DNA of 64,000 nucleotides from Methylobacterium sp. Leaf465. GTDB lineage: Bacteria > Pseudomonadota > Alphaproteobacteria > Rhizobiales > Beijerinckiaceae. The position numbers were made by a program, and so were the translations under genes. Positions within the stretch are counted from its first letter, which is position 1. The number at the start of each line of letters is the position of its first letter. This document shows, in pieces, positions 43,967 to 61,881 of the stretch. The notes beneath the pieces were generated by a model. That model was given only the letters and a program-made list of their open reading frames with translations. It had not been told where the DNA came from and ran no database searches. The DNA lies in NCBI RefSeq assembly GCF_001424705.1, contig NZ_LMRA01000012.1, positions 1-64,000 on the forward strand, written 5' to 3'.

Positions 43967-45727
43967 TCAGCGCAGGAGGTTCGTCTTCGCCAGGTCGAGG
44001 ACCGAATCCCCGCGCCCGCTCATCACCGCCCGCAGGACGTAGAGGCTGAAGCCCTTCACCTGCTTGCCGTCGATCTTCGGGGGCATCGAGAGTTCCTGGC
44101 GGGCCACCACGCAGTCGAGGAGAGCCGGGCCCGGATGGGCCATCACCGCGCGCACGGCGTCCTCGAGTTCGGCCGGGTCCTCGACCCGGACGGCATGGAT
44201 GCCGGCGCCGCGGGCCATGGCGGCGAAGTCCGGGTTGTCGAGGGACACGCCCGTCTCGATGTAGCCGGCGGCCTTCATCTCCAGCTCGACGAAGCCGAGG
44301 GTGCCGTTGTTGTAGACCACGATCTTCAGGGGCAGCTTCTGCTGGCGCAGGGTGAGGAGGTCGCCCATCAGCATGGTGAAGCCGCCGTCGCCCGAGAGCG
44401 ACACCACCTGCCGGTCGGGATAGGCCGATTGCGCGCCGATGCCCTGCGCCATGGCGTTGGCCATCGAGCCGTGGACCCAGGAGCCGATCAGCCGGCGCCG
44501 GCCGTTCATCTTCAGGTAGCGCGCCGCCCAGATCGTCGGGGTGCCGACATCGGCCGTGAACACCGCATCGTCGTCGGCCGCCTCGCTCACCAGCTTCGTC
44601 AGGTATTGCGGGTGGATCGGCGGCTTTGCCGATTTCAGGCCGAACCAGCCCTTGGCGGGCGCGCCGGTGGCGAGGTCGTCGAGGTCCTCGCGCGCCTTGG
44701 CGTAGTGCTTCAGGGCGGCGTCGAGATGCTTGCGCTCGGTCTTGACGGTGAGCTTCGGCAGGAGGGCCCGGAGGGTGTCGTCCACGTGGCCGACGAGGCC
44801 GAGGTCGAGCTTGCACCGGCGCCCGAGCTGGCCGGGGCGGATGTCGACCTGCGCGATCGTCGCGTCCTGCGGGTAGAACTGCCGGTAGGGGAAGTCGGTG
44901 CCGAGCATCAGCAGGGTGTCGCAGGACATCATCGCGGCATAGCCCGACGAGAAGCCGATCAGCCCGGTCATGCCGACGTCGTAGGGGTTGTCGTACTCGA
45001 CCACGTCCTTGCCGCCGAGGGCATGCACGATCGGACTCTTCAGGGCCTCGGCCAGTTGGAGCAGCTCGGCATGGGCCCCGGCGCAGCCGCGTCCGCACAG
45101 CAGGGTGATCCGCTCCGAGCCGTTCAGCAGCGCCGCGAGCGCGTCGAGCTCGGGCTCGGCCGGGCGCACCACGGGCCTGGGCGGAATCAGCCCCGCATTG
45201 GGGGCGACGCCGCGGGTGGGCGCGTCCATCAGGGCGACGTCGCCGGGGATGATGACCACGGCGACGCCGGAGAGGCCGATCGCCGCCCGCATGGCGTTCT
45301 CCAGCACCTGCGGCAGCTGGGAGGCGTCGCCCACCATCTCGCAGTAGTGGCTGCACTCGCGGAACAGCTCGCCCGGATGCGTCTCCTGGAAGTAGCCCGA
45401 GCCGATCTCGGACGATGGGATATGGGCCGCGATGGCCAGCACCGGGGTGCGGGTGCGGTGGCAATCGTAGAGGCCGTTGATCAGGTGGACATGGCCCGGC
45501 CCGCAGGAACCGGCGCAGACCGCGAGCTTGCCCGAGAGCTGGCTGTCGGCCCCCGCCGCGAAGGCTGCCACCTCTTCGTGGCGGACATGGACCCAGTCGA
45601 TGGTGCCCCGGGCCCGCAGCGACTCGGTCAGCGCGTTCAGGCTGTCCCCGACGATGCCGTAGATCCGCTGGACGCCCGCCTGGTCCAGGGTGTCGACGAT
45701 GAGGTCCGCGACGGTGACGATCTTCAT
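43967..45727 (-). CDS. poxB: TPP-dependent pyruvate dehydrogenase (quinone)-like protein
   Basis: The 586-residue enzyme of the pyruvate oxidase/acetolactate synthase superfamily has the order PYR domain ([16 protein letters not shown], then [10 protein letters not shown] with the catalytic Glu), a central FAD-type domain and a TPP domain ([20 protein letters not shown] with the GDG...NN metal motif ending [10 protein letters not shown]). Length and sequence fit PoxB, which decarboxylates pyruvate to acetate and passes electrons to quinone at the membrane. Other carboligase or decarboxylase activities cannot be excluded. The ATG at 45727 is the family start. Confidence 0.87.
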
Positions 45728-45985
45728 GGCGCTCGGCTCCGGTTGTCCCCTGCCGAACCGGATGCCGCACCCGGCGGTTCCAGCCGAGGGTTGTGTCCCA
45801 CGCGCAGCTGTCATCCGGGGGCGTTGGCGCGGGGCGCGACCTCGTCGCGACCCTTGGCGTATACGCTGCGCGGTTTCCGGCTCCGACTTTTCTCGGGAAT
45901 GCGGGCAATTTGAGCGACCCGGTTAGGCCGTCCTTGGCGCGGGCCGCCGAATCTGGGCTGTCCGATCTGTCTCGAGATCCGTCCC

Positions 45986-46228
45986 ATGCAAGACCGCCGC
46001 GCCGAACCCCGGATCCTGTCCGATGAGACCGGCAGCATCACTCTCGACGAACACACCGAGATCGCCTGCCTGGTCCATGATGTCTCCCTGGGCGGGGTCA
46101 GGATCACCCTTCCGGATGCCGCCCGGGTGCCGAGTCCCTTCCTCCTGACGGCGCCACCGCTGGACGGGATCAAGCTCTGCCACGTCGTCTGGCGCACCGA
46201 CGAAATGATCGGTGTGCAATTCCGCTGA
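45986..46228 (+). CDS. Single-domain PilZ protein
   Basis: The 80-residue protein is one PilZ domain, with the RxxxR element in DRRAEPR at the N-terminus and D.SLGGVRI near residue 32 (the D/NxSxxG element), then a short beta barrel ending GVQF. It probably binds cyclic di-GMP and acts on partners. It is followed by a second PilZ gene after 72 bases. Confidence 0.85.
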   Translation: MQDRRAEPRILSDETGSITLDEHTEIACLVHDVSLGGVRITLPDAARVPSPFLLTAPPLDGIKLCHVVWRTDEMIGVQFR

Positions 46229-46300
46229 CGATCCGCCCGGCGGATCGTGGATACCGAGTCGTAACCACTGGGACTCTACCTTCGCCTCGACCACAACCAC

Positions 46301-46570
46301 ATGGCACCCCCGATGGAAGAGAGACGATCCGAGCCCCGCTCCCGCACGTTGCTGACAGGCAAGATCGCGTTGCAGGGTGGCGGCGTGATCGACTGCACGC
46401 TGCGCAACCGCTCCGCGTCCGGCGCCCGTCTCCGGGTCGCCAGCGTGGTCGGCATTCCCGACCGCTTCACGCTGCTGCTGGAGCTGCAGGGCGAGCGCCG
46501 CCCGGCCCGGGTCGCGTGGCGCAAGCCGGGTGAGATCGGCGTCCAGTTCCTCGACGAACCGGCCCTCTAG
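46301..46570 (+). CDS. Single-domain PilZ protein, second copy
   Basis: The 89-residue protein has ERRSEPR and the RNRSASGARLRV block (NxSxxG), then ARVAWRKPGEIGVQFLDEP. It is similar in layout to the preceding gene but diverged. The stop is ten bases from the end of the convergent glycosidase operon. Cyclic di-GMP control of the neighbouring polysaccharide genes is a reasonable but untested idea. Confidence 0.87.
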   Translation: MAPPMEERRSEPRSRTLLTGKIALQGGGVIDCTLRNRSASGARLRVASVVGIPDRFTLLLELQGERRPARVAWRKPGEIGVQFLDEPAL

Positions 46571-46580
46571 GACCGGCGGG

Positions 46581-47864
46581 CTACCAGATCTCGAGGACGG
46601 CGAGGCGGTCGGTGGCCGCCACCGTGGGGACCTGCATCGGTGCCAGTCCCGTGACGCTGACGACGCCGTCGTCGCCGAAGCGGTGCAGGCGCAACCGCCG
46701 GGGCGGGCTCGAAAGATGGAGCGCCACGGGGCGCGGCGCGCTGTCCGGGCGCGGCGCCCGGGCGTTCCGGTCCCAGCCGTCGAGCCCGAGCCAGACCGGC
46801 ACCAGCAGGGCGCCGTCCGACCGCTGGAAACTCGTTGCCACCAGATCGGGCACATCGACCGGCAGCACGACCCCGATGCGGTCTCGGGACGCCGTCGCGT
46901 CCTCCGCGCGACCGCCGAACAGGCGGATCAGGCTCCGAACGGCGGCGAAGGACGCGCTCGGTGTGCCGTCATGGGCGATCAGTCCGAACCGGCTCTCCGG
47001 GTCGGCATCGCCCCCATCGAACGCGGAGATCAGCTCGTAGAGATAGGTCCGGCGTACGCCCTGCAGGTAGCTCCACAGGAGGAGGCGCGGCAGGTAGCGG
47101 GCGCGGAGAGCTTCCGAGACCGGCAGGTGGGCGCTCCGGGTGGCCAGCGCCGTGTGATAGCCGGTCTCCGTGACGATGACCGGCGCGGTGCCGAAGACCG
47201 GCCGAACGGCCGCGAGGAAACCGCCGAGACTGCCCGCCCCTCGGGTTTCTGGATGCTCCAGCCCCGGATAGGCGTGGACGTTGGCGAGATCGACCGAGGC
47301 GGACAGGTTCTCCGCGGCGGCGATGTTGGCCTGGATGTAGCTCGGCCCGGCCACCCGGACGGTTCGGTGCCGCGGGGCGTCCCGCACCGCGCGGAACAGC
47401 GCCGCCTGATGCTCCGCGGACAGGCGGGCAAGGCCCGGACGCGCGGCCACCGGCGGCTCGTTGCCGCCCTCCACGACGACGAGCCCGTCCTCGGCCCAGT
47501 CGGCGATCTCGGCGAAGCGCTCCGGCGGCACGCGCGGACCGGGGGTCAGGCCGTCGTAGAAGACCAGGCTGAAGCGGTAGCCCCGGCGGGCGAGCCCCGC
47601 GATCCGCTCGAACTGCCCGGCCGGCTCCGTGCCGACGAGGACGATGTCGTCGCGCAGGTGGCGCACGCCGAGGTCGTCGAGGGCGGCGGCACAGTCGGAA
47701 AAGCGCGCGACGTAGGGCGAGCCGCCATGGCCGAGATGCACGTTGATGCCGATGGCGTCGATCAGGTCCTCGCAGCGGTGCGCCGGCGCGGGTGCGGCCT
47801 CGATCCGCGATGCGAAGGCCCCCGCCCCCAGGGCCAGGGTCGCCCGGCGGGTGAGCCCGCTCAC
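46581..47864 (-). CDS. Exported clan GH-A-type glycoside hydrolase
   Basis: The 427-residue protein has a twin-Arg-like signal (SGLTRRATLALGAGAFASR) and a TIM-barrel domain beginning IDAIGINVHLGHGGSPY. The acid/base Glu lies in VVEGGNEPPV (Glu136) and the nucleophile Glu in VIVTETGYHT (Glu233), about 97 residues apart as in clan GH-A. A small beta domain ends the protein. The family within the clan (GH5, GH39 or other) is not clear. It is the last gene of the operon, overlapping the hydrolase gene by four bases with a GTG start (47864). It would act in the periplasm or outside, on a sugar polymer or glycoconjugate. Confidence 0.8.
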   Translation of the reverse strand: MSGLTRRATLALGAGAFASRIEAAPAPAHRCEDLIDAIGINVHLGHGGSPYVARFSDCAAALDDLGVRHLRDDIVLVGTEPAGQFERIAGLARRGYRFSLVFYDGLTPGPRVPPERFAEIADWAEDGLVVVEGGNEPPVAARPGLARLSAEHQAALFRAVRDAPRHRTVRVAGPSYIQANIAAAENLSASVDLANVHAYPGLEHPETRGAGSLGGFLAAVRPVFGTAPVIVTETGYHTALATRSAHLPVSEALRARYLPRLLLWSYLQGVRRTYLYELISAFDGGDADPESRFGLIAHDGTPSASFAAVRSLIRLFGGRAEDATASRDRIGVVLPVDVPDLVATSFQRSDGALLVPVWLGLDGWDRNARAPRPDSAPRPVALHLSSPPRRLRLHRFGDDGVVSVTGLAPMQVPTVAATDRLAVLEIW

Positions 47865-49657
47865 GCCAGGCTCGCCAGAACGGTGGCCCGGGAATCGGTC
47901 TCGACGGGTTTGTGCGCTTCCGTGCGGGTCGCCCGGGCCTCCTGAACCGCCGTCAGGAGGTCGCGCAGGTGATGCCCGAGCACGGCCTGCGCCGTGGCCG
48001 AGCTGAAGTTGTGGTCGACCTCGGGCACGATCGCCACCGGCGCGCCGAGGCGCCGGTCGGCCCGACCGGGCGAGCGGCCGAGATAGCGGTGGAGGGCGGC
48101 GAGCCCGGGGTCGCCGGCGCTGTAGACCAGGCGGATCTCGGCGCCCCGTCGCCGCAGCCGCGCCACCCGTCGGGCGACGGAGCCGCCGGGGGAGATCGGG
48201 TTCACGAGGCGCCGCAGCCGCCGGACGGCCGCATCGAGGCCGCGCCTGGCCAGGGTCGCGCCGATCGCCCGTACGTGGATCTCGCCGCGCAGGAGCCGCC
48301 GCCAGGTCGCGCCCCGCTTGAGCAGCGCCGCATAGGTGCCGGTGCTGCCGAACGTCTGGCGGATCACGGCGTCGACGTCCTGATCCGGGTCCCAGTCGAA
48401 GCAGTAGGGGTTGATCAGGAGCGCCCCATCGACCCGGGCGTCGCGGCAGAGGGCCTGGAACGCCGCATGGGCGCCGCTGCAATTGCCCATGAGGACGATG
48501 GGGCCTCGGACCTCGGCGAGGTGATCGAGGGCACGGCCCACATCCGCGAACCCGTCGGGGGCGTAGGGCGGCCTGCGACCGTCCGACCGGCCGCCGCTGT
48601 CGCCGATGCCCGCGAGGTCGAAGCGGAAGGACGGAATGCCGTCCACCGCGAGCCTGCGGGCGAGCGTGGTGGTCTGCCGGCCCCACCCCGAATGCACGGT
48701 CATGCCGGTGGAGACGAACACCACCGTCGGCGCGCCCGGATCCTGCCGCCGGGGCATACAGCTGATGCCGAACAGGTCCGGCTGGAACCGGGCGGGCGCC
48801 TCGGACCAGCCGGGGCCGACGAGGTGCGCCGGGCTGAGATCCAGGGGAATGGCCGGACCGGCGATTGTGACGCCGTCCGTTGCGAAGGCGGTGATCCGAT
48901 TGAAATCCGCCTCCGGGACCTCGGCGAAGATCGGGTCGCCGACGAGAAGCGGAAGGCCCGGCAGCGGCCCCGTCTCGACGGCGCTGCCGAGCGCCGTCAG
49001 CCGTCCCGCCAGCGTCCGGGTCTCCGGTGCGAGAAGCAGGGTTCGCGGGGCCGGCGCGCGGGTGATCGCGCCGGCGTCGAGGGCGCCGACATCGGTCAGG
49101 AAGGCTGCAACCATGCGAAAGCCCCCGACCGACAGGCCGTCCGGATCCGCCTTCGGGACCGCGCCCTCCGCGACGCCGCCCACCGTCCGGGCGCGAAGCC
49201 GCATCTCGCGGAGATAGGTGCGTCCAGTCGCAGCCGGTGCGAGCAGGACCAGGCGGTCGACGCTCTCCTCCTGGGCCGCCAGCAGGGCCAGGTTGGCACC
49301 GAGGCGCAGGCCGACGAGGACGATCTCCGTGACGCCGGTCGTCTCGCGCAGGAAGCGCATCGCCCGGCGGATCGCCGCGACGTTGGCCGAAACCCGCACT
49401 TCGCCGGGATCGCCGGAGTTGCCCTCCCCCGGATAGTCGAACCGCAGGGTCGGGCAACCGGCCGCGGCGAGTCGATCCGCCAGGGCGCGCCAGGGGCGAT
49501 GGGCGGCCATCTGCTCGAACCCACAGGCGCCGCACAGGAGCACGCCGCGCCGGCCCGCGGCCGGGTGGACCCATCCGAACAGGTCGTCGAAGGTCACGGG
49601 CATGGCGGCGTCGGGCGCCGCGTGCGTCTCGTGCTCGGGGCGGACCTCACGCGTCAT
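47861..49657 (-). CDS. Two-domain alpha/beta hydrolase
   Basis: The 598-residue cytoplasmic protein contains two alpha/beta-hydrolase folds in tandem. The first (about 30-240) has FDYPGEGNSGDP but its nucleophile elbow reads LVGLRLGANLA (116-120), with Arg in place of Ser. The second (about 310-560) has FRFDLAGIGDSGGRSD and an intact elbow MGNCSGAHAAF (Ser near 394), with a late Asp in VYSAGDPG and a His in PEVDHNFSS. The layout recalls exosortase A system-associated hydrolases. It could transfer or hydrolyse an acyl or aminoacyl ester from the carrier protein of this operon. It overlaps the GH2 gene by 11 bases. Confidence 0.85.
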   Translation of the reverse strand: MTREVRPEHETHAAPDAAMPVTFDDLFGWVHPAAGRRGVLLCGACGFEQMAAHRPWRALADRLAAAGCPTLRFDYPGEGNSGDPGEVRVSANVAAIRRAMRFLRETTGVTEIVLVGLRLGANLALLAAQEESVDRLVLLAPAATGRTYLREMRLRARTVGGVAEGAVPKADPDGLSVGGFRMVAAFLTDVGALDAGAITRAPAPRTLLLAPETRTLAGRLTALGSAVETGPLPGLPLLVGDPIFAEVPEADFNRITAFATDGVTIAGPAIPLDLSPAHLVGPGWSEAPARFQPDLFGISCMPRRQDPGAPTVVFVSTGMTVHSGWGRQTTTLARRLAVDGIPSFRFDLAGIGDSGGRSDGRRPPYAPDGFADVGRALDHLAEVRGPIVLMGNCSGAHAAFQALCRDARVDGALLINPYCFDWDPDQDVDAVIRQTFGSTGTYAALLKRGATWRRLLRGEIHVRAIGATLARRGLDAAVRRLRRLVNPISPGGSVARRVARLRRRGAEIRLVYSAGDPGLAALHRYLGRSPGRADRRLGAPVAIVPEVDHNFSSATAQAVLGHHLRDLLTAVQEARATRTEAHKPVETDSRATVLASLA

Positions 49658-52082
49658 GACCGAACCTCACGCTTTCGCTGCTGTTGAGGGCCGCGACCGC
49701 GCCCTGCGGGAGCCGATGGCACCCGGGGAAGCGAACCAGCCGCTCTGTCCCCGGTGCCAGGTGGAAGCCGCTGTCGCAGGGCCGCGCCGCGGAGCTCCGC
49801 ACGCTCACCCCGAGGGCGAGATGACTGGTTCCGATGCGCAGGGTCGGTACGGATGCACCGGCCACGGGTTCGACCCGCAGGCCGATCGCCTCGGGAGTGA
49901 CTGGCCGGGGTCCCGGAAAGTGGAAGCTTTCGGCGACGACCGCGCCGTCCGCATCGGTGAGACGGGCATGCGCGAGGTCGTGGATGCGGGGGCCGAAGCG
50001 GTAGCTGTCGGTGGCATCGAAGAAGCGGCCGAGCATCTCGGCGGAGGAGAGGGTCAGCGAGGCGCGCGGGTCGACCGTGATCCCGCGTTCGGCCCGGGCC
50101 GCGACTTTGCCGGTGCGATCCGCGAAGATCAACCCCAAGCGCAGGTCGACCGGCCGGGCGGTCTCGTTGTGGACATGGAGGTGGAGACCGCTCAGGCCCT
50201 CGTCCGACAGGGTGACCTGCACCGGGCGGAAGGCGCGCTTCAAGGCGTACCAGCCGGATTTCGGGGTTTGGGTCCAGTCGATCACGCCCCAGCCGGTGCC
50301 CGGCCCGAGGTCACGCAGGAACCAGACGAGGCCGCCGGCAGTCGGCGAGCGCGCCCGGCGCCACTCGGCGAAGGTCGCCTCCATCACCTCGGCCACGGCG
50401 GCGCGGCCGAGTTCGAGGTAGCGCTCGGGATCGGCGGCGCGCAGGGCGGCGGGATCGACCCCGTAGAGCAGGGCGACATAGTGGTCGCGCACCTGCTCGA
50501 AATCCCAGTCGGCGCCCCGGTCGCGGGGGATGCCGCGAGCCCAGAGCGGATCGGCGGGCCCCATCTGCCCGAGCGTCGCCGGTTCAGGCGGGTTGGCGAA
50601 AGCGAGGCATTCGCTGGCGAATCCCACCTCGGCCCGGCGCGCATCCTCCTGAGGGCGGCGATAGGCACCGACGCCGTAATAGTGGGTACAGCCCGCGCTC
50701 GGCGAGAACGGCAGGTCGCCGCCCGAGGGCGAGTTCGGTACCACCACGAGGTCGGGACGGGTGCCGGTGACGAGTCCCGGCAGCGTCTCGGTGCAGAAGG
50801 CGTCGGCCCAAACCGTCCGCGGCGCCCCGAGCATGGCCGCCTGCTGCCAGACTTCGCTGCCGCCGCAGATCACGGCGAGGCAGGGTGCGAGCTGAGTCCG
50901 CTCGAGGATCCCCGACACTTCCCGGTCGAGGCTGGCGGCAAAGCCGGCGGCGTCGTGCGGATAATCGAAATTCGCCAGCATCAGGTCCTGCCAGACGAGG
51001 ATGCCGGCGGCGTCGCAAAGGTCGTAGAACTCGGGCGAGGGATAGAGGGTGGCGCCGGAGACGCGCAGCATGTTCATGCCGGCCTCGCGCGCAAGGTCGA
51101 CGAGGATGGCGCCATCCTCGGTGCCGAGGCCGACGAGGTCCGGGGGGGTCCAGTTGGCACCCCGACAGAACACCGGCACGCCGTTGACGGCGAGCGCCAG
51201 GCCCTCCGCGAAGGGTCGTGCCAGCGACAGGCTGCGAAAGCCCGTCCGGCCGAGATCGACCGTGGTGCCGTCGATTTCCACGCGCACGGGATGGAGGTGG
51301 GGCGTGCCGTGGGTATGGGGCCACCAGGGCGCCACGCCGGGCAGCGCCAGGGTTCCGGTGAACAGATCGGTCTCGGATTCCGTCAGGGTGACCGCGCGCC
51401 CGGCGCAATGCAGTGTGACCGATGCGGGATGGCCGTTGATCCGCAGGCGCGCGGCCAGCCGGCCCACGTCGCCGTCATAGGTGGCCCGCAGGTCGGCTTC
51501 CACCAAGCCGCGGCGCAAGGGCTCCACCGTGATCGGGCGGTAGGGACCCACGAGGTCGATGTCCGGGCACCAGCCCGGCATGAAGCCGAGGAGGCTCGTT
51601 CGGACGTGGCGCAGGGAGCCCGGCGTGATCATGCGGGGGCGCCAGCGCCCGCGTTTGCCCGGGCGGTCGAGCTCCGCCTTGAGCGACCGGAAGCAGAGGC
51701 GGAGCTCGGCCCCCGGCCGGAGATCGGCCTCGACGGCGTAGGCCTCGAACATCGAGCGGGAGACCAGCACGGGCATGCCGTCGAGCCACACCTCGGCGAG
51801 GGTCGCCAAGCCCTCGAAGCGCAGGCGCACGGGACCGCTTTGGGTCAGCCGGGTCCGGTACCAGACGTCCTGGTCATGGATCGGCGTCGGTGCCGACTCC
51901 GACCAGGCTCCGGCGTCCCGCAGGGCCGCGGCGACGGTGCCGGGCACCGGGGCGGGGATCCAGTCCGCCGCCTCCGACAGGTCGCCCGGGCCGGCCCAGG
52001 CGCCGGGCGGCGTCAGGGCGAGCCGCCAGGGGCCGTCCACGGCCTGCGGTCCCACACCGTCGATGGACCGGATCTTGGCCAC
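49647..52082 (-). CDS. Glycoside hydrolase family 2, beta-mannosidase type
   Basis: The 811-residue cytoplasmic protein (no signal) follows the beta-mannosidase layout: a sugar-binding domain (about 20-180), two Ig-like domains and the TIM barrel. VFCRGANWTPPD (305-314), GMNMLRVSGATLYPSPEFYD, LVWQDLMLANFDYP and the acid/base Glu410 in VICGGSE are visible, as is a likely nucleophile Glu491 in FASECLAF. The acid/base motif reads CGGSE instead of the usual CGNNE, and the nucleophile motif SEC instead of SEF/YG, so specificity may differ. It starts at a GTG (52082), nine bases behind the DUF1839 gene. Confidence 0.87.
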   Translation of the reverse strand: MAKIRSIDGVGPQAVDGPWRLALTPPGAWAGPGDLSEAADWIPAPVPGTVAAALRDAGAWSESAPTPIHDQDVWYRTRLTQSGPVRLRFEGLATLAEVWLDGMPVLVSRSMFEAYAVEADLRPGAELRLCFRSLKAELDRPGKRGRWRPRMITPGSLRHVRTSLLGFMPGWCPDIDLVGPYRPITVEPLRRGLVEADLRATYDGDVGRLAARLRINGHPASVTLHCAGRAVTLTESETDLFTGTLALPGVAPWWPHTHGTPHLHPVRVEIDGTTVDLGRTGFRSLSLARPFAEGLALAVNGVPVFCRGANWTPPDLVGLGTEDGAILVDLAREAGMNMLRVSGATLYPSPEFYDLCDAAGILVWQDLMLANFDYPHDAAGFAASLDREVSGILERTQLAPCLAVICGGSEVWQQAAMLGAPRTVWADAFCTETLPGLVTGTRPDLVVVPNSPSGGDLPFSPSAGCTHYYGVGAYRRPQEDARRAEVGFASECLAFANPPEPATLGQMGPADPLWARGIPRDRGADWDFEQVRDHYVALLYGVDPAALRAADPERYLELGRAAVAEVMEATFAEWRRARSPTAGGLVWFLRDLGPGTGWGVIDWTQTPKSGWYALKRAFRPVQVTLSDEGLSGLHLHVHNETARPVDLRLGLIFADRTGKVAARAERGITVDPRASLTLSSAEMLGRFFDATDSYRFGPRIHDLAHARLTDADGAVVAESFHFPGPRPVTPEAIGLRVEPVAGASVPTLRIGTSHLALGVSVRSSAARPCDSGFHLAPGTERLVRFPGCHRLPQGAVAALNSSESVRFGHDA

Positions 52083-52091
52083 GCTCCGCCC

Positions 52092-53066
52092 CTACCGATC
52101 GAGCGCGCGGTCGAGGGCTGCGAACACGTCCGCGTAGGTGGCCGCGAGCCGGTCGAGACGCGGCGCGAGACCGTCGGCACTGCGGCGGTGGAAGGCCCGT
52201 GCAAGCTGGAACTGGAAGGCCTTGGCCTCGACGGCGAGGCGCGCGGCCGCGTCCGAGGCTGGAGCGAAAGGCCCCGCAGCTGCCGCTTCGAGCCAGGTGA
52301 GATGGCTCGCGAGCATCTCGAAATTCGCTCCGAGCTGGCGCGTGGTGTTGAAGGCGTAGGCGTGAAAGACCCCGAGGGGGCGCTGGACCAGGGCAGGCGC
52401 CGTCCGCGCGAGGGCGTCGCGGAACGCCAGGACCGGATTGTGCGCCGGCGCCCGCGTACGGTGGCGCCGTAGCAGGTCGAGGGCGGCGCCCGGCAGGTCG
52501 GCCGGGCTCATGGGGGACGCGACCGCCTTCACGAACTCCGCGTAGGGCGGCAGCACGGCAGGTCCGAAGATGCCGTGGTAATTGTCGCCGGAGAGCCGGA
52601 AGCGACCGGCATTGTGAAGGTAGTCGAGCTCCCGGGTTTCGGGGTCGAGGGCCAGGATACCGATCGTGGTCTTGCCGTGATCCCGGCCGTAGGTGGTGCC
52701 GGAAGTATCGGGCAGGTGGATCGCGTCCACCTCCACCAGCACCGGGCGGCCCTGTTGGACCTGGATCAGGGCCTGCGCTTCGAGGGTGTCGTAGACCGCG
52801 AGCTCCAGCACCTCGATCCCGTATAGCCGCTCGAGATCGGCCGCCGGCGGCTTGAAGAACGTGAACTGGTCGCCCTCGAAATCCTGCCGCAGGGTGAAGC
52901 CCAGCATCGCCTCCGGCACGAGGCCGCGCCCGTGCAGGAGTTCGATCCAGAGATCGACGTAGCAGTTCGTTTCCGGCCAGTTGCGGTCGGCCGCATGGAG
53001 CAGGTGCGGCACGTAGGGCGTCTCGGGGGCGAGCCCCTGCGCCGACCGGAGGCGTGCGGCGGTCAC
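52092..53066 (-). CDS. DUF1839 family protein
   Basis: The product of about 324 residues has the DUF1839 pattern: NWPETNCYVDLWIELLHGRG, DFEGDQFTFFKPPAADLERL, VLVEVDAIHLPDTSGTTYGR (then DHGKT) and a helical C-terminus (FNTTRQLGANFEMLASHL). The central part resembles the BtrH/papain-like N-terminal fold seen in carrier-protein-dependent aminoacyl transfer, which is inference. I recall DUF1839 genes lying beside amino acid:carrier protein ligase genes in Bradyrhizobium. The GTG at 53066, five bases behind the ligase stop, is preferred; an ATG at 53099 would overlap it. Confidence 0.85.
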   Translation of the reverse strand: MTAARLRSAQGLAPETPYVPHLLHAADRNWPETNCYVDLWIELLHGRGLVPEAMLGFTLRQDFEGDQFTFFKPPAADLERLYGIEVLELAVYDTLEAQALIQVQQGRPVLVEVDAIHLPDTSGTTYGRDHGKTTIGILALDPETRELDYLHNAGRFRLSGDNYHGIFGPAVLPPYAEFVKAVASPMSPADLPGAALDLLRRHRTRAPAHNPVLAFRDALARTAPALVQRPLGVFHAYAFNTTRQLGANFEMLASHLTWLEAAAAGPFAPASDAAARLAVEAKAFQFQLARAFHRRSADGLAPRLDRLAATYADVFAALDRALDR

Positions 53067-53070
53067 CGGA

Positions 53071-54039
53071 TCAGCCCCACAGAGTGGTGCGCACGGCATC
53101 CGGCCAGGCTGCGAGGTCCAGGCCGTGATGGCGCAGGAGCGCCAGGGTGATCCGTTCCAGGCCGAAGCCGACGCAGGCAGTGTGCGCGACGCTGCCGTCG
53201 GCTTGGCGCAGGTTCCAGGTCGTTCCGAAATGGTCCTGGTGGTAGTTGAAGCTGAGGCAGGCGGTCGGCTTCTCGACGCTGTTCACCGGCACGTTCAGCT
53301 CGAACTTCAGGTTCTGCTGGCGCTGGTTGTTGGCGAGCATCCGCCCGGCCCGGCCGAAGAACGGGTCGTTGGCGACGTCGATCGCCAGCGGCAGCAGGAG
53401 GCTGCGGATCATCTCGGTGCCGCGGGCGAGCCAGGATTCACGGAAGGCCAGCACCTGCTCGGGGCTGCCCATGCGCACGTATTCGCGCATCCGGAAGAGC
53501 TGCATCCGGGTCGGTTCCAGGCTGGGTTCGCGCCGGAAACAGTACGATTGCAGGTCGAACAGGCCGCCCTCTTCGGGCAGGCGGCCGCGCGCTGCGGCGG
53601 CCGGGTAGAGAGGGTAGCAGGCCGCGGGGGTGAGCACGATGTCCGTCGCCTGCTGGTGACCGGTCCAGTCGCTCCGGGCTTCGACGCAGGCGAGAAGCTC
53701 GGCATGCTCCGCCTCGTTGCCGCAGAAGCTGTGAATGGTGCCGGCGAGGTTCGGAAAACCCTTGAGGTAGCCGCTGCGCTCGAAGGCTGGCCGGCTCATG
53801 CCGGGGGGAAAGCGCATCACCTCCGCCCCGTCCGCCGCGCCGAGGCGGCTGATCAGGCGCTCGAGGGCATCGACGACGCTTTCGAAGGCGCCGCTGCGGC
53901 CGTAGAGGCCGTCGACGCCGGTGCGTACCAGGAGGCCCTGGTCGAACAGGCGGTCGAGGAAGCTCGGGACGCCATCCGGGGCCTCGTCGAAGATTTCGGC
54001 GGCGCGGGAATCTGCCCGGGGAGAGAAGGTCGAGTCCAT
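53071..54039 (-). CDS. Amino acid--[acyl-carrier-protein] ligase (SerRS-like)
   Basis: The 322-residue class II aaRS-like enzyme lacks the tRNA-binding arm of seryl-tRNA synthetase. Bradyrhizobium homologues adenylate Gly or Ala and load it on the phosphopantetheine of a small carrier protein. As I recall, the zinc ligands there are Cys131, Glu176 and Cys279; here Cys141 ([10 protein letters not shown]), Glu186 (RMREYV) and Cys289 ([11 protein letters not shown]) keep exactly the same spacing. Motif 2 is [11 protein letters not shown] and motif 3 is [11 protein letters not shown]. The gene lies one base from the dehydrogenase stop (TGATG) and directly precedes DUF1839. The amino acid used is not predictable. 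Confidence 0.9.
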
Positions 54040-55202
54040 CACGCGCTCATGAGCTGGCCGCCGCCCTTCTGCACGAGCAGAAGCTTGGCGGTGTTGGCGA
54101 GGATGCGGTCGTTTCCGATCATCAGCGGCGCCGACAGGACGTCGCGCAGTGGCCGGCCGAGGCTGAAGGGCGTGCCGTTCTTGTAGCCGGCGAGGCCGAC
54201 GATCGAGAGGGCGCGCTGCACGATGTCGACGGCCATCTCGGAGGCGGTCGTCTTCAAGTTGTTCATTATGACGGAGAAGCCGATCGACCCGATGGTGTCG
54301 ACGTCTCCTTGCGCGTCCTCGTAGCGGCGGAGCGCCGACACGATGGCGGCCCGCATCGCCTGGAGGGCGTTGGAGACCTCGGCAAGGCGCAGGGCCGTCG
54401 GCGGCACCTGCCCCGGCTGGCGCCGGGCCTCGGCCTGCACGAAGGTGCGGGCGCGGTCGACAGCGGAATTGGCGATGCCGAACCAGACGCTGCTCCACAG
54501 GAGGTGCGAGGAGGCCAGCATCGACTGGGCCGCGATCTCCGCGAAGGGCTTGGGCAGGATCTGCTCGACGGGAATGTCCCGGGCCTCCAGGCGGAAGCCG
54601 TCGCTGCAGGTGCCGCGCATGCCGAGAGTGTCCCACACGCTCTTGCGCTCCAGGGAGACCTGGTCGGCGAACAGGGCCACCAGCACTTGGTCGGAGCCCG
54701 CGGCCTCCGGGTGGCGCCGGGCAGTGGCGAGGATCAGGTCGGCTTGCGTCCCGTAGGAGATCACGGAGGCGTCTTTGCCGAGGGCGAAGACGCCTCCGGT
54801 GGTCTCGACGGCGCAGAAGCTGGTGCGCAGGTCGCCGCCGATCCCGGCCTCCGTGGTCGAGGAGGCTACGAGGAGCTGCTCCTGGGCGATCCGCTCCATC
54901 AGGTGACAATGCCACGCGCTGTCCAGGCCGTGGGCCACGAGGCTCGCGACCTTGATGTGGTGCATCGCGAACACCATCGCGGCACTGCTGCACGCTTGCC
55001 CAAGCGTGCAGCACAGGTCCGCGATCTCTCTCAGCCCGGCCCCTTCGCCGCCGAGCTGGCTCGGGATCTGCAGGCCCAACAGGCGCTCCGCCTTGAGGGC
55101 CGTGACCGCTTCCAGGGGGAAGCGGCCGTCTCGGTCGACGGCGTCGGCATGGAGCGCCGCGATCGTCGCTGCCCGCTGCGCGCGCTGGGCCAGGGTGCTC
55201 AT
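54039..55202 (-). CDS. Acyl-CoA dehydrogenase-like protein
   Basis: The 387-residue FAD enzyme fold has an N-terminal helical domain ([20 protein letters not shown]), a beta domain ([33 protein letters not shown]) and a C-terminal four-helix domain ([20 protein letters not shown]). In this context it may oxidise an acyl or aminoacyl group on the carrier protein rather than a CoA ester. I do not see an unambiguous catalytic Glu at the usual place. It overlaps the carrier-protein gene by four bases. Confidence 0.87.
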
Positions 55203-55453
55203 GCGGCCTGCGGATGGAGGACGGTGGCCACGGTCTCGCGGATCGCAGCGATCGACGCGAAGGACTTGCGGGTCAGGAACTCGTCCGGGAACTCGATGCC
55301 GAACCGCTCCTCGAGGGCCAGCATCAGCTGGACCGAACCGAACGAGTCGAGGCCCCGATCGAACAGGCTGTCGTCGTCGCCGATCTGTTCGGCGACCGGC
55401 GCGAGCACCTCATTGGTCGCGAGGATCTCGCGGATGTCCTGAGAGGTGACCAA
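55199..55453 (-). CDS. Stand-alone acyl/aminoacyl carrier protein
   Basis: The 84-residue acidic, helical protein has the phosphopantetheine site in [15 protein letters not shown] (Ser37), then [25 protein letters not shown] followed by CCGTACC places the start at the TTG at 55453. It heads the seven-gene operon and is the natural acceptor of the ligase encoded two genes downstream. Confidence 0.9.
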
Positions 55454-55481
55454 GGTACGGCTCCTTTCTAAGCAATAGCAC

Positions 55482-55510
55482 ATGTATTGGCTGGCGATTT
55501 GAATTGTCAA
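55482..55510 (-). promoter_or_regulatory. Candidate sigma-70 promoter of the carrier-protein operon
   Basis: On the minus strand TTGACA (55510-55505) is followed, after 17 bases, by ATACAT (55487-55482); a spacing of 18 gives TACATG. The -35 is perfect and the -10 weak. Transcription would start about 20-25 bases ahead of the TTG start codon. Confidence 0.4.
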
Positions 55511-55745
55511 ACAATAAGGGCCACGATGGTAAATACCGGGCTCTGTTGTGTGCGATCGGGTTTGTCGACGGCCGACGCTCCGATGCTCACCCAGCGCGCC
55601 GGTCTTCTGATCGATCTTCGTGCCAATCCTAGAGGAAGGCAACTTTACAGGCGCTTCCCCCAAGATCCTCCGGCTCGGAAATTCACCGGCATTCGCAGCG
55701 TCAGCGACAACACCTGATAGCGTGGTAAACAAAGTCTCGCAATAA

Positions 55746-55775
55746 TTGACAAAAGGCGGAACGATTCAGGATAAT
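55746..55775 (+). promoter_or_regulatory. Candidate sigma-70 promoter of the acyltransferase gene
   Basis: TTGACA (55746-55751), an 18-base spacer and GATAAT (55770-55775) form a strong match to the sigma-70 consensus. It lies about 105 bases ahead of the start at 55883. Confidence 0.6.
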
Positions 55776-55882
55776 GCCTGGAATGACGTGACTTTGCGGG
55801 CCGGCGCGCGCTCAGGTTCGACGATCAGGCGTTGACCGGGCCCGCTCCCGTTCGGCGGACGCACACGATCCTTCGGCGAGAG

Positions 55883-56971
55883 ATGATCTACAACCTGCAG
55901 ATCCTGCGCGCCCTGGCGGCCTATTCGGTCTTCCTGACGCATTTCGGACTGTACGCGGGCCCCATCCTGCCGAGGCCCGACGCGATGGCGTTCGGAGCGG
56001 CGGGCGTGGACGTGTTCTTCGTCCTGTCCGGCTTCATCATGTTCGTGAGCACGGCCGGGCGAAGCGAGACCCCCGGTTCGTTCCTGCTCCGTCGGGCGAT
56101 TCGCGTGGTACCCCTCTACTGGCTCGTCACCCTCGGGCTGGCGCTGATCGCGCTTGCCGGACTGAAACCCATCGGCATCGTCGAGCTGCGGCCGGATTAC
56201 GTGGTGCAGTCACTGCTGTTCCTGCCGTTCTCGCGGGGCGGCTACGTCGAGCCCCTCAATTCGGTGGGCTGGACGCTCAACTACGAGATGTTCTTCTATG
56301 CCGGCTTCGCCGCCTTGCTGCTCGTGTCGGACTTGCGCGCGCGGTTGATCGGCCTGGCCGCCGCCTTCGGTGCGCTGGTCCTGCTCGGCCTGGCGCCGGT
56401 ACCGGGCCTCTACTGGGCCTATTATACGAAGCCGATCGTGCTCGAATTCGTGGCCGGTGCGGCTCTGGGCTACGCCTATCTCCGCTGCGGGGCGCCCTTG
56501 CCCGGCTTCCCGGTCCGGCGGGCGGCCGTCGGCGCGCTCGCGGTCGCGGGCGCCCTCATCCTCGGTGGGCAGGCGGTGGCGGGCGCCCTCGGCGCCGATT
56601 TGGAGATGACGGGGTTCCTGCGCCCTCTCGTCTGGGGGAGCGCCGCGGCGCTCGCCGTCGGCGCGCTGCTTCTGCTGGAGCGGGGCGGCATCGTCCTGCG
56701 CTCGAGGTGGCTGTTCTCCCAGGGGAACGCCAGCTACGCGTTCTACCTGATCCACAATCTGATGTTGCATGCCGGCGCCAAGGTGGCGGCCGTTCTGGTG
56801 GTTCCCGGTCCCCTGCGCGTCGTCCTGGTCTTCGTCCTGGCCTTCAGCGCTTCCATGCTCCTCGGGGAATGGCTGTTCCGCTGCGTGGAAAGGCCCATCG
56901 GGGCCGCCCTGCGGCGGTTGTGCGACCGGAGCCCGGGCCCTGGGCCGCTGCCCGGCGCGGTTCCTTCCTGA
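55883..56971 (+). CDS. Acyltransferase 3 family membrane protein
   Basis: The 362-residue protein has about ten hydrophobic helices. The family start QILRALAAYSVFLTHFGLYA carries the catalytic His (LTHFG), GVDVFFVLSGFIM and RRAIRVVPLYWLV follow, and ASYAFYLIHNLMLH lies near the C-terminus. Such proteins transfer acetyl or other acyl groups to sugars during exopolysaccharide or O-antigen synthesis at the inner membrane. I chose the ATG at 55883; the frame also opens at a TTG at 55832. It is the first rightward gene of the cluster and faces the carrier-protein operon. Confidence 0.9.
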   Translation: MIYNLQILRALAAYSVFLTHFGLYAGPILPRPDAMAFGAAGVDVFFVLSGFIMFVSTAGRSETPGSFLLRRAIRVVPLYWLVTLGLALIALAGLKPIGIVELRPDYVVQSLLFLPFSRGGYVEPLNSVGWTLNYEMFFYAGFAALLLVSDLRARLIGLAAAFGALVLLGLAPVPGLYWAYYTKPIVLEFVAGAALGYAYLRCGAPLPGFPVRRAAVGALAVAGALILGGQAVAGALGADLEMTGFLRPLVWGSAAALAVGALLLLERGGIVLRSRWLFSQGNASYAFYLIHNLMLHAGAKVAAVLVVPGPLRVVLVFVLAFSASMLLGEWLFRCVERPIGAALRRLCDRSPGPGPLPGAVPS

Positions 56972-57224
56972 ACGAACGGACGCCGCGATGCGAAACCACC
57001 GTCTGTCTTGATCCTTCCTGAAAACCTAATACGGGCAGGCTGATTTTCAATAAAAGCGTCCGTAGACTGTTATCTCTAAGTACTGATCGTGCGTAAGATG
57101 ACTTCAGCACGTGGGTTTATCATAGTAGTTTAGTTCGAAGAGAGAATGCTCTCAGGGGTCGGTGTCATGCCGTCCGTCTGCGGAGGTTCTCTCGGTGTCC
57201 GGCAGGCCGGCGAGGATGTTTCGG

Positions 57225-58412
57225 ATGCGTATAGCGATCGTTCACGACTGGTTATACGTGGTCGGAGGCGCCGAGCAGGTGCTGCGCCAGCTGCTGAAGA
57301 TTTATCCGCAGGCCCATGTCTATACCCTGTTTGACTTCCTGCCCGAGTCCGCGCGGACCTATCTCGGCTACACGCAGGCGCGCACGAGCTTCATCCAGCG
57401 CCTTCCCCTCGCGCGCACGCGGCACCGGCACTACCTGCCGCTGATGCCGCTCGCCATCGAGCAGTTCGACCTGTCGAGCTACGACCTCGTCATCTCGAGC
57501 AGTTACGCCGTGGCCAAGGGCGTACTCACCGGACCGGACCAGCTTCACGTGTCCTACGTCCACTCCCCCATGCGCTACGCCTGGGATCTGCAGCACACCT
57601 ATCTGCGGGAGAGCGGCTGCGCGAGCGGCCTCAAGGGCCTGCTCGCTCGGCTCATCCTCCACCGGATGCGCCTGTGGGACTACCGCACCGCCCCCGGGCC
57701 GAACGCGATCATCGCCAATTCCGGTTTCGTGGCGCGGCGGATCCATAAGGTCTACGGTCGCGGCGCCGAGGTGATCCCTCCGCCCGTCACCTTGTCCAGC
57801 CAGCGCTACGACGGACCGCGCGGGAACCACTTCCTGGTGGCGAGCCGCCTCGTGCCCTACAAGAACGTCGAAGCCGTGGTGCGTGCCTTCGCGCAGCTGC
57901 CCGGCCTCGACCTCGTGGTCGCCGGCACCGGTCCGGAGGCCGAGCGGCTGAGGGCGATCGCGACCCCGAACGTCACCTTCGCGGGGTTCGTATCCGACGA
58001 GGAGCTGCGCCGTCTCATGGCCACGGCCCGCGCCTTCGTCTTCGCGGCGGAGGAGGATTTCGGGATCATCGTTGTGGAGGCCCAATCGGAGGGCACGCCC
58101 GTCCTCGCCCTCGGGCGCGGCGGCGCTCGCGAGACCGTGCAGGTCCGTGGGCCGAACCGCACGGGCCTGTTCTTCGACACGCCCGAGCCCGATGCCATCG
58201 CGTCCTGCGTCTGCGACTTCATCCGCCAGGAGGACAGCTTCACCCGCGAGGCCTGCCGGAACCAGGCGGAGCCGTTCTCCGCCGATCTGTTCCGCATCCG
58301 ATTCTCGCGCTTCGTCGACGAACAGCTCACGATGCATCGCGCCGCCTGCGAGCCACGCCTGCGCACCCTCTCCCGGCTCGAGGCCGTTCCCCGCTTCGAA
58401 GCCGTGTCCTGA
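57225..58412 (+). CDS. Glycosyltransferase family 4 protein
   Basis: The 395-residue GT-B retaining glycosyltransferase starts with RIAIVHDWLYVVGGAEQVL (the Gly-rich acceptor loop) and has VSYVHSPMRYAWDLQHTYL and NHFLVASRLVPYKNVEAVVR. The C-terminal AAEEDFGIIVVEAQSEGTPV carries the EX7E motif for the nucleotide sugar. The ATG at 57225 opens the fold; an ATG nine bases earlier is possible. The 253 bases upstream are A+T-rich with one small hairpin (GAGAG/CTCTC, 57140-57153). It is followed by the Wzc-like gene after 12 bases. Confidence 0.93.
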   Translation: MRIAIVHDWLYVVGGAEQVLRQLLKIYPQAHVYTLFDFLPESARTYLGYTQARTSFIQRLPLARTRHRHYLPLMPLAIEQFDLSSYDLVISSSYAVAKGVLTGPDQLHVSYVHSPMRYAWDLQHTYLRESGCASGLKGLLARLILHRMRLWDYRTAPGPNAIIANSGFVARRIHKVYGRGAEVIPPPVTLSSQRYDGPRGNHFLVASRLVPYKNVEAVVRAFAQLPGLDLVVAGTGPEAERLRAIATPNVTFAGFVSDEELRRLMATARAFVFAAEEDFGIIVVEAQSEGTPVLALGRGGARETVQVRGPNRTGLFFDTPEPDAIASCVCDFIRQEDSFTREACRNQAEPFSADLFRIRFSRFVDEQLTMHRAACEPRLRTLSRLEAVPRFEAVS

Positions 58413-58424
58413 GGAGCGGCGCGC

Positions 58425-60623
58425 ATGTCCCTCCTCACCCTCGACATGTCCGACCGCGCGCCGGCCGCCGGGTGCGTACCCGAGCAGGACCGCGAGCGCG
58501 GCGGCGCGCTCATGGCGCCCCTCCTCAAGATCTGGCGCCGCCGCGTCCTGTTCGCGACCGTCTTCGTCGCCGTCCTCGGGCTCGCGGTGGCCATCCTGTT
58601 ACGCACGCCCGCCCAGTACGTGGCGACCGGGTCCGTCATCGTGGCCGAGCCGGAGCCGGGCGCCAGCAACGCCTCGATGGCCTGGATTCAGAAGCTCGGC
58701 GATCCGGCCGATCTGGAGAGCCAAATCCTGGTGATCCGCTCGCCCCGCCTCATGCGTCTCGCCGCCGAGAGCGGCCTCGCCGAGGCGGTGATGTCCGAAT
58801 GCCGTGAGACCGTCACCCGTGGGCATCCCGACCGGATCACGGAAAAGAAGGATGCCGTCTGCGCCAAGCTCGGCGCGGACCGCGACGCGCTCGTGGAGTA
58901 TCTGCAGAAGCGCTACATGGTCGGCAGCGCCGGCCGCTCACGCGTCATCGCCATCGGCTACAAGTCGCCGCTGCCCGAGGTGGCGCAGACGATGACCAAC
59001 GCGCTCATCAACGCCTTTCTGGATGACCAGCGCAACGCGCAGGCCTCGAGCCGCAAGGCGGCCACCGACTGGCTGTTCACCGAGATCAAGCAGCTCGACG
59101 CCTCGATCCGCGACGACGAGGCGCGCATCCAGGCCTTCCGCCGCCGCAAAGGCCTCGTGAAGGGTGCGACCGGTCCGATCAGCGCCGAGCGCCTCACCGG
59201 GATCAGCCAGCAGCTCGCGGCCGCCGAGGCCGCCAAGGCGGATGCCGCCGCACGCCTGAAGGAGATCGAGGCCGACCGTCGACGCGGCTCCGACAGCGCC
59301 CCGGCGGTGCTCGCCAGCCGCGCCGTAGGCGACCTCAAGCAGCAGATCAGCGGCGTCAGTGCGCAGCTCGCCAACCAGAGCACTCTGCTCGGCCCGAACC
59401 ACCCGACCGTTCGCGCCCTGCAGACCGAGCAGGCCAGCCTGCGCGCCCGGATCGACCGGGAACTCGCCAACGTCGCCGACGGCCTGCGCAAGACCTACGA
59501 GGCCTCGAACAGCCTGGCCCGCTCCCTCCGCGCCCAGATGGACGCCGCCAAGTCCGAGGCGGCCGCTGCCATGGACGACGAGGCCTCGATCGAGGGCATG
59601 GTCCGCAATGCGGAGATCAAGCGCGCCCGCTATGCCGACCTCGTGAAGCGGGCGAGCGAGCTGGAGACCGAGCGCCGCATCCTCACCGGCAGCACCCGCT
59701 TGGTCAGCGTCGCCGAAGTGCCCCAGGAGGCGTTCTCGCCCAAGCCCGTCCCGTTCCTGGTCGGGGCCGTCGTACTGGCGACCGTGCTCGCCGCCGGCGC
59801 CGCCCTCCTGCGCGATCTCGCCGACCGCCGGGTCCGCACGCCCGCCCAGCTGGTGGCCGGCACCGGCGCCCCGGTCTTCGCCCAGCTGCCCTGCCTGGCT
59901 GCCGGCGGCCTGATGGGCCGCCTTTCCGACCGGCGCCGCGAACTGCCGCTGGCCGAGGCCCTGCAGCGGGCGCAGGCGGATCCTGGCATGCGGAACGTGC
60001 TGCGGACCCTCCACGCCCACCTGTTCCTGGCGGGCGGCGACGGCTCGCGCACGGTGCTGGTGACCTCGGGCAAGCCGCGCGAGGGCAAGTCCTTCACGAC
60101 CTTCGCCATTGCCGGCCTCAGTGCCGCGAGCGGTCGCCGTGTCCTGGTGATCGAGTGCGACCTGCGCCGGCCCAACTTCGAGGCCTCCCTCGGTCTGGGC
60201 CGCAGTCCCGGCCTCGCCGGCATCCTGCGCGGCGAGATCGACGCGGCGGCGGCCGTCATCGCCAAGGACGGATTCGACGTCATCCCGGCCGGCGTTCCGA
60301 CGCCGGACTCGACCGAGCTTCTGATGAACCACCGCATGGCGAACCTCCTGCGTTGGAGCCGGCGCTACGACCTCGTGCTCCTCGACAGTCCGCCGACCAG
60401 CCTGCTGATGGATGCTTGCATGCTCGCCCGCCACGTGGACGGCGTGCTCTGCTGCACCCGTGCGGGCCGCTCGCAGCTGTCCGATACGATCGAGACCGTG
60501 ACGAGCCTGCGTCAGGCCGGCGGCGCCGTCCTCGGCATCGCCATGACGATGGTCAAGCCCGGCGGCCAGCCGGCCTACGAGGCCATGCCCCTGTCCTTGC
60601 CGCATCGTACGGGAGCCGCCTGA
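58425..60623 (+). CDS. Wzc-like polysaccharide chain-length/BY-kinase protein
   Basis: The 732-residue inner-membrane protein has TM1 at about residues 38-60 (RRVLFATVFVAVLGLAVAIL), a Wzz periplasmic domain with a long coiled coil (about 190-420), TM2 (VPFLVGAVVLATVLAAGAAL) and a cytoplasmic ATPase. The ATPase has Walker A GKPREGKSF, Walker A' VLVIECDLRRP and Walker B DLVLLDSPP. It controls export and length of an exopolysaccharide. The C-terminal tail lacks a Tyr cluster (a single Tyr in QPAYEAM), so autophosphorylation in the usual way is doubtful. It overlaps the next gene by one base (TGATG). Confidence 0.92.
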   Translation: MSLLTLDMSDRAPAAGCVPEQDRERGGALMAPLLKIWRRRVLFATVFVAVLGLAVAILLRTPAQYVATGSVIVAEPEPGASNASMAWIQKLGDPADLESQILVIRSPRLMRLAAESGLAEAVMSECRETVTRGHPDRITEKKDAVCAKLGADRDALVEYLQKRYMVGSAGRSRVIAIGYKSPLPEVAQTMTNALINAFLDDQRNAQASSRKAATDWLFTEIKQLDASIRDDEARIQAFRRRKGLVKGATGPISAERLTGISQQLAAAEAAKADAAARLKEIEADRRRGSDSAPAVLASRAVGDLKQQISGVSAQLANQSTLLGPNHPTVRALQTEQASLRARIDRELANVADGLRKTYEASNSLARSLRAQMDAAKSEAAAAMDDEASIEGMVRNAEIKRARYADLVKRASELETERRILTGSTRLVSVAEVPQEAFSPKPVPFLVGAVVLATVLAAGAALLRDLADRRVRTPAQLVAGTGAPVFAQLPCLAAGGLMGRLSDRRRELPLAEALQRAQADPGMRNVLRTLHAHLFLAGGDGSRTVLVTSGKPREGKSFTTFAIAGLSAASGRRVLVIECDLRRPNFEASLGLGRSPGLAGILRGEIDAAAAVIAKDGFDVIPAGVPTPDSTELLMNHRMANLLRWSRRYDLVLLDSPPTSLLMDACMLARHVDGVLCCTRAGRSQLSDTIETVTSLRQAGGAVLGIAMTMVKPGGQPAYEAMPLSLPHRTGAA

Positions 60624-61840: not shown

Positions 61841-61881
61841 CGCTGACGGACAATCCCCCCATCCGGAGCCGCCGAGCCACG

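Follow-up and report, generated by a model that had tools for sequence, protein, structure and literature searches.

The window analysed here, the first 64 kb of its contig (positions 1 to 64,000 of NZ_LMRA01000012.1, Methylobacterium sp. Leaf465), contains seven genes lying head-to-tail on the minus strand, from 55450 down to 46581 (Table 1). They encode a small carrier protein (CP), a flavoprotein of the acyl-CoA dehydrogenase (ACAD) fold, a SerRS-like amino acid:[carrier protein] (aa:CP) ligase, a DUF1839 protein, a glycoside hydrolase of family GH2, a tandem alpha/beta hydrolase and an exported GH-A-like protein. We favour, with moderate confidence, the view that this operon specifies a carrier-protein pathway which N-aminoacylates a sugar belonging to a surface polysaccharide or to its precursor. 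A preliminary description of this DNA had all seven genes and their positions right, and had also proposed that an aminoacyl group passes from the CP to a sugar. It took such a route to be undescribed, which proved wrong: its core had been published as a prediction in 2010, in a paper that describes a neighbourhood of this kind, glycosidase included, and predicts sugar aminoacylation (PMC2922099; here and below, papers are cited for the passages available), and the general kind of reaction is known from the Dlt and AlmEFG systems (PMC3783018). The aa:CP ligases were described in 2010, a 2022 review (PMC9437257) still gave their biological role as unknown, and a part for DUF1839 in glycan processing was suggested from context in 2023 (PMC10318531). 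Among the papers on DUF1839, Atu257x/258x and aa:CP ligases listed in one open-access library, we found no experimental test of the sugar-aminoacylation prediction. What the present analysis adds is that the fold of DUF1839 matches those of CcbD and CtaG, that the hydrolase can be fused to a flippase, that a cysteine nucleophile is predicted in the hydrolase, that DUF1839 and GH2 are strictly paired, and that the ligase loci split into two types, A and B.

In the pathway that we propose, the ligase would adenylate a small amino acid and load it on the phosphopantetheine of the CP, as reported for its relatives. The ACAD-fold flavoprotein would then alter the CP-bound aminoacyl group, oxygenation being likelier than ordinary desaturation. 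Judging from its fold, its residues and its context, DUF1839 would accept the aminoacyl group of the CP on its Cys35 and hand it to a sugar amine, in the manner of CcbD in celesticetin synthesis. The GH2 enzyme, as partner of DUF1839, may cut or edit the acceptor glycoside inside the cell, and the tandem hydrolase, with its putative Cys nucleophile, may act on a substituent or on a lipid-linked unit near the flippase. More speculatively, the exported GH-A enzyme could trim the finished polymer in Methylobacterium.

Conservation was examined in the loci of the best 80 of 584 confirmed ligase relatives (named loci, numbered L) and in further regions added from other genomes, each gene of the operon being searched with its own profile. 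Counts come from hidden Markov model searches of stop-to-stop frames, gene calls in high-GC loci being imperfect (antisense frames in several), and merging loci with identical ligases reduced the 124 type-A loci to 115 distinct ones. The closest named relative found was Methylobacterium sp. Leaf104, whose ligase is 97% identical. The genes for CP, ACAD, ligase, DUF1839 and GH2 followed each other in this order and on the same strand in 119 of the 124 type-A loci, and all five lay at most 6 kb from the ligase in 110 of the 115 distinct loci, a recurrence which is far beyond chance. Of the five loci short of the full set, L037, L106 and L179 are truncated by the end of a contig, and L085 and L177 are genuine exceptions. 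The core cassette was also found outside the class (L160, L161, L163, L164), and the GH2 protein is 43-49% identical to that of the window in named loci from organisms other than Methylobacterium. In L111 (12066-14116), two genes, one of them with a 2-thiouracil desulfurase domain, separate the GH2 gene from the rest of the cassette.

The last two genes of the operon are less constant. The tandem hydrolase was present in 82 of the 124 type-A loci (75 of 115 distinct), and the exported GH-A gene in 13 (10 of 115 distinct), all of them from the genus of the window. At 13 loci out of 124, the GH-A gene was rejected as part of the core; L035, L140, L142 and L144 share the arrangement of the window without it. 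According to the preliminary description, the glycan link would fail if most lineages carried the core block without glycosidases; GH2 accompanies the block nearly everywhere, and the exported GH-A protein does not. The idea of an aminoacyl transfer from CP to sugar lost the support of the latter, which lies outside the conserved system, and keeps that of GH2 conservation, of the DUF1839 fold, of the hydrolase-flippase fusion and of the adjoining polysaccharide locus.

The pairing of DUF1839 with GH2 distinguishes the two ligase types. DUF1839 was found in 122 of the 124 type-A loci; neither it nor GH2 was found in any of the 15 loci with a type-B or weakly matching ligase, 14 of which have an ACAD gene beside the ligase (the exception, L126, is a weak match). 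Among 99 relatives, type-A ligase and DUF1839 co-occurred in the same 28, and DUF1839 was absent from the 13 genomes with a type-B ligase only and from the 3 with weak matches only. In a broader sampling, 241 genomes spread over the class yielded DUF1839 in 4, and 397 spread over the phylum yielded it in 20, of which four belong to one family outside the class. One type-B locus (L112:7622-18685) is likewise placed in a polysaccharide setting: downstream it has Wzz and Wzy_C, together with an SDR enzyme, an AMP-binding ligase, an Abhydrolase_3 esterase and a second small CP-like open reading frame without Pfam match.

The candidate transferase is DUF1839. Its AlphaFold2 (AF2) model, built with 37 sequences, is confident (predicted local distance difference test, pLDDT, 90.1; predicted template modelling score, pTM, 0.90). 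The best Foldseek matches were the AziU2-U3 complex (E 1e-5), CtaG (E 2e-5) and CcbD (E 2e-4). All 17 matches at E <= 0.001 (1.1e-5 to 4.7e-4) were to one of these three, and they covered nearly the full length of DUF1839 (318-364 alignment columns), its helical C-terminal part included; the fold is papain-like. The next fold match, phytochelatin synthase, came at E 0.06, and no BtrH structure was present among the 50 matches listed of 256. In the family alignment, Cys35 is kept in 130 of 131 rows, Thr134 in 129 and His151 in all 131, and His130 is replaced by Ala in 10 (row totals here and below, namely CP 129, ACAD 136, DUF1839 131, GH2 116 and hydrolase 83, include some genomes twice). This conservation fits the unusual C(T/S)H, that is Cys-Thr/Ser-His, catalytic order proposed for DUF1839 (PMC10318531). 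CcbD joins a carrier-bound proline to an amino sugar through an amide bond, by a Cys-based ping-pong route (PMC12945683), donor and acceptor being of the kinds proposed for DUF1839. In DUF1839, the helix residues K282, Q285, R290 and R294 are also conserved and are candidates for docking the CP, a task which arginines perform in CcbD (PMC12945683). CcbD/LmbD, CtaG and AziU2-U3 have the fold in common with DUF1839 over nearly the full length; they differ in that DUF1839 is 11-15% identical to them and is not found in such a natural-product cluster.

DUF1839 is present twice in each of two genomes from outside the class (L160:7446 and 12277 in one; L161:9474 and L162:127 in the other). In both, Cys35 and Thr133/Thr134 are missing from the copy that belongs to the cassette, and the second copy keeps all of them; the latter lies about 5 kb off on the opposite strand in one genome (G577) and on another contig in the other (G517), with a Wzz-type gene and a hydrolase some kilobases away. 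The degenerate L161 copy is the lone Cys35 exception mentioned above, the degenerate L160 copy being outside that alignment. Joint loss in the degenerate copies suggests that Cys35 and Thr133/Thr134 matter together.

Identification of the ligase and of its carrier is straightforward. The ligase, a stand-alone core of 323 aa, matched the PDB entries 4h2w (E 6.3e-100) and 3mey (Bll0957, E 9.4e-97), residues 7-320 aligning to 15-329 of 4h2w (346 aa). Its C142, E187 and C290, putative Cys-Glu-Cys zinc ligands as in Bll0957, are invariant in 16 aligned sequences. The CP matched 4h2w_C and 2jq4 (Atu2571) at E 4-5e-18, and Ser36, to which phosphopantetheine attaches, is kept in all 129 aligned rows.

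The ACAD-fold flavoprotein has Ile or Val where 3pfd has its Glu, in 136 of 136 rows, and hence lacks the canonical catalytic Glu, the catalytic base of acyl-CoA dehydrogenases. A second known Glu site, according to our own placement, is also not Glu. With the Glu base missing, a normal desaturating acyl-CoA dehydrogenase is unlikely. A single-sequence search of the PDB gave as best matches the FAD-dependent oxidoreductase 3m9v/4kcf, presumably KijD3, and DnmZ (4zxv), both of which we take to be amino-sugar N-oxygenases. This ranking suggests a nitrososynthase; the ranking by family profile does not. As type-B loci keep the ACAD gene without DUF1839 or GH2, the flavoprotein probably acts on the aminoacyl-CP that the two types share. 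It could, in particular, N-oxygenate the CP-bound glycyl or alanyl group, and the amide placed on the amino sugar of a surface polysaccharide would then carry an oxidised (e.g. N-hydroxylated) aminoacyl, type-B loci delivering the same group to a different acceptor. We consider this extension doubtful; if it is true, plant-associated bacteria would have a modular system, derived from an aminoacyl-tRNA synthetase, which supplies glycan decoration with a non-standard aminoacyl donor.

The context of the cassette points to surface polysaccharides. In 20 loci, the hydrolase is in one frame with a Polysacc_synt_3-type (Wzx-type) flippase. Seventeen of these 20, all named loci, come from Rhizobium, Mycoplana and Rhizobiales, and Pfam confirmed flippase and hydrolase domains in one fusion of 1103 residues (L103:15801-19112). 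The flippase adjoins the hydrolase as a separate gene in 13 further loci (12 distinct). In the window itself, the operon stands head to head with AT3, four GT4 (glycosyltransferase family 4) and Wzz genes; flippase and Wzy_C genes then follow on the contig, as seen by Pfam on the frames of a stretch that starts at window position 60001 (L180) and extends beyond the window end. Matches to AT3, GT4 and Wzz were found together in 18 of the 124 loci, all from the genus of the window. In Agrobacterium vitis (L070), genes for a flippase (by clustering), a GumK-like protein and a GT4 enzyme come after the hydrolase, and in one genome outside the class ManC and Wzc genes stand beside it (L183). Atu2577 and Atu2582 onward are part of an uncharacterised Agrobacterium glycan cluster (PMC9790009) which, judging from the locus numbers, would adjoin Atu2571-Atu2574; Atu2574 would, by its position, be the DUF1839 gene. 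Altogether, Wzx or Wzz matches were obtained in 61 of the 124 loci (57 of 115 distinct), counts which apply to the stretch examined per locus, the profiles being narrow and some stretches short.

Several points weigh against the polysaccharide pathway. For DUF1839, a template modelling score (TM-score, query) of 0.53-0.61 at the identity given above indicates kinship of fold and not a shared substrate, the PDB sequence search gave no match up to E 10, and the predicted triad differs from the Cys-His-Glu of CcbD. No amino-sugar genes were seen among the Pfam-scanned neighbours, no search aimed at them having been made. One type-A locus has ligase and CP only (L085:9559-10924), ACAD, DUF1839 and GH2 not being matched in its 20.9 kb, and L177 is without GH2; sampling the best 80 of 584 relatives moreover leaves distant ligases under-sampled. 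As to the flavoprotein, ordinary acyl-CoA dehydrogenases come level with the nitrososynthases or above them in the ranking by family profile, 7p98 and 3pfd, both annotated as such dehydrogenases, being above. Finally, neither Wzx nor Wzz was matched in 58 of the 115 distinct loci, which also fits a small glycoconjugate.

The product would in that case be a small sugar-amino acid conjugate, diffusible or intracellular, of the lincosamide or mycothiol kind; the proximity of polysaccharide genes would be secondary, and GH2 would act in deprotection, by removing a precursor sugar. Many Rhizobium-group loci have EF-P genes, and not glycan genes, upstream. AziU2-U3 and CtaG, two of the three nearest folds of DUF1839, serve natural products. 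So does the third, CcbD (PMC12945683). Against such a conjugate stand the fusion of hydrolase and flippase, the Wzx/Wzy-type locus that diverges from the operon in this same genome, the GumK-like and GT4 genes which A. vitis has next to the cassette, and the Agrobacterium glycan cluster (PMC9790009); we consider it possible, if rather unlikely.

The GH2 enzyme matched the PDB beta-mannosidase 5n6u at E 4.3e-42, and two further Pfam domains were below cut-off (PF17786, 22.6 of 23.4 bits; PF00703, 19.7 of 23). E410 and E491, which we take to be the catalytic pair, are kept in 116 of 116 rows and align with Glu of the beta-mannosidase 7op6, 5n6u being without Glu at the first site. No signal peptide was seen at the start of the protein, which therefore probably works in the cytoplasm. 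CtaG makes amides on non-sugar amines, and the flavoprotein has a distant likeness to the profile of L-prolyl-PCP (peptidyl carrier protein) dehydrogenase (43.2 bits, cut-off 650); both features would suit a nonribosomal peptide or a related metabolite without sugar. This was the first proposal made for aa:CP ligases (according to PMC2922099), and we judge it highly improbable here: the seven proteins have no condensation-domain Pfam match, and GH2 is near-universal in the cassette with both Glu kept.

The tandem hydrolase is best matched, one half each, by the exosortase A-associated hydrolases 1 and 2 (TIGR03100 and TIGR03101). It differs from them in remaining below both curated cut-offs (121.8 of 168.45 and 64.9 of 202.75 bits) and in having both halves in one chain. 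In the N-terminal half, Ser occupies the nucleophile position in just 5 of 83 rows. The C-terminal half has G-x-C-S-G (Cys393) in 83 of 83 rows, Asp516 in 82 and His549 in 83, and its predicted active site is of the cysteine type. Given such an invariant nucleophile, this half might be the acyltransferase, DUF1839 being then a thioesterase or a partner protein, and the in-operon DUF1839 without Cys35 and Thr133/Thr134 in two genomes outside the class would agree with this. However, each of these genomes has the second DUF1839 copy which keeps the residues, and the hydrolase is found in 82 of the 124 type-A loci as against 122 for DUF1839. We regard such an exchange of roles as very unlikely, and retain DUF1839 as the candidate transferase.

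The GH-A assignment is the weakest of the seven and is based on motifs. GGNEP and TE motifs, which we read as GH-A marks, are conserved in six GH-A-like sequences. The protein had no PDB sequence match up to E 1, its AF2 model was poor (pLDDT 51, six close sequences), and its N-terminus is, we assume, Tat-like.

Compared with known systems, the ligase and CP belong to the same families as those of Agrobacterium (Atu2571-Atu2574) and Bradyrhizobium (Bll0957); the Methylobacterium operon has, in line, the tandem hydrolase and the exported GH-A gene as well. By eye, on the alignments, Bll0957 looks closer to type B, whose loci are without DUF1839 and GH2. DltABCD, for D-alanylation of teichoic acids, and AlmEFG, for addition of glycine to Vibrio lipopolysaccharide, likewise bring a CP-loaded amino acid to a surface glycan (PMC3783018). 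The present operon differs from both in activating through a SerRS relative and not through a DltA-type ligase, since Pfam detected no AMP-binding domain in the seven proteins; these are also without MBOAT or LPLAT domain (Pfam), and a flavoprotein and a glycosidase are added. A five-gene cassette, a candidate transferase, the precedent of CcbD and the flippase fusion together open the role of aa:CP ligases to direct experiments. If the polysaccharide pathway is true, plant-associated bacteria use a relative of aminoacyl-tRNA synthetases to supply the decoration of a polysaccharide, with a possible effect on the charge of their surface.

Table 1. Features of the operon and of the adjoining polysaccharide locus (window coordinates)
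Feature	Position	Strand	Support
carrier protein (CP), 83 aa, Atu2571 relative	55199..55450	-	PF00550 E 6.6e-11; NF005480 89.5 bits, cut-off 72
ACAD-fold flavoprotein	54039..55202	-	PF00441 E 9.8e-12
SerRS-like amino acid:[carrier protein] ligase, type A	53071..54042	-	NF005479 513.9 bits, cut-off 357
DUF1839, proposed aminoacyl-CP:amino sugar transferase	52092..53066 (GTG) or ..53099 (ATG)	-	PF08893 E 3.9e-113
GH2 enzyme, beta-mannosidase type, fifth core gene	49647..52082	-	N-domain PF22666 E 1.8e-11
tandem alpha/beta hydrolase	47861..49657	-	PF12146 E 6.6e-18; PF12697
exported GH-A-like protein	46581..47864	-	PF00150 weak, E 0.11; GGNEP + TE motifs
acyltransferase-3 (AT3) membrane protein, divergent, first gene of adjoining polysaccharide locus	55832..56971	+	PF01757 E 4.4e-23
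GT4 glycosyltransferase	57162..58412	+	PF00534 E 9e-23
Wzz/BY-kinase-like chain-length protein	58425..60623	+	PF13807 E 2e-6 above cut-off; PF02706 Wzz E 5.8e-4 below cut-off
three more GT4 genes	open frames 60155-61840, 61141-63027, 62903 onward	+	Pfam

The intergenic gaps in the operon are, in order, -4, -4, +4, +9, -11 and -4 bases. A simple scan of 55400-55900 gave no promoter for the operon, other promoter types being outside its reach; the single promoter-like site which it returned is on the plus strand, i.e. for the divergent locus. A simple scan of 45850-46700 revealed no terminator.

Directly upstream of the CP gene, EF-P, class II synthetase and radical-SAM genes were found in 33-39 of 80 loci, many of them from the Rhizobium group (for instance L103:5467-8295, the one neighbourhood of this kind checked with Pfam). 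The class II synthetase is presumably EpmA-like and the radical-SAM protein EpmB-like. The EpmA-like gene upstream of the cassette sets two tRNA-synthetase relatives side by side. That the cassette is tied to EF-P modification was considered and set aside, L038, L043, L045, L046, L080, L094 and L111, among others, showing no such genes.

Just below the operon, a quinone-dependent pyruvate dehydrogenase is encoded on the minus strand (43967-45814; NF006591, 1003.7 bits), a neighbour found in L032 only among the 80 named loci. On the plus strand, 40000-43887 encodes a repeat protein with Pfam matches to Ig-like domains and Secretin_N, no single stretch passing alone; it is built of 270-base tandem units (VTYAFQLDGSTVETNTSG type) and has NPDVxAA-like repeats in its C-terminal part.

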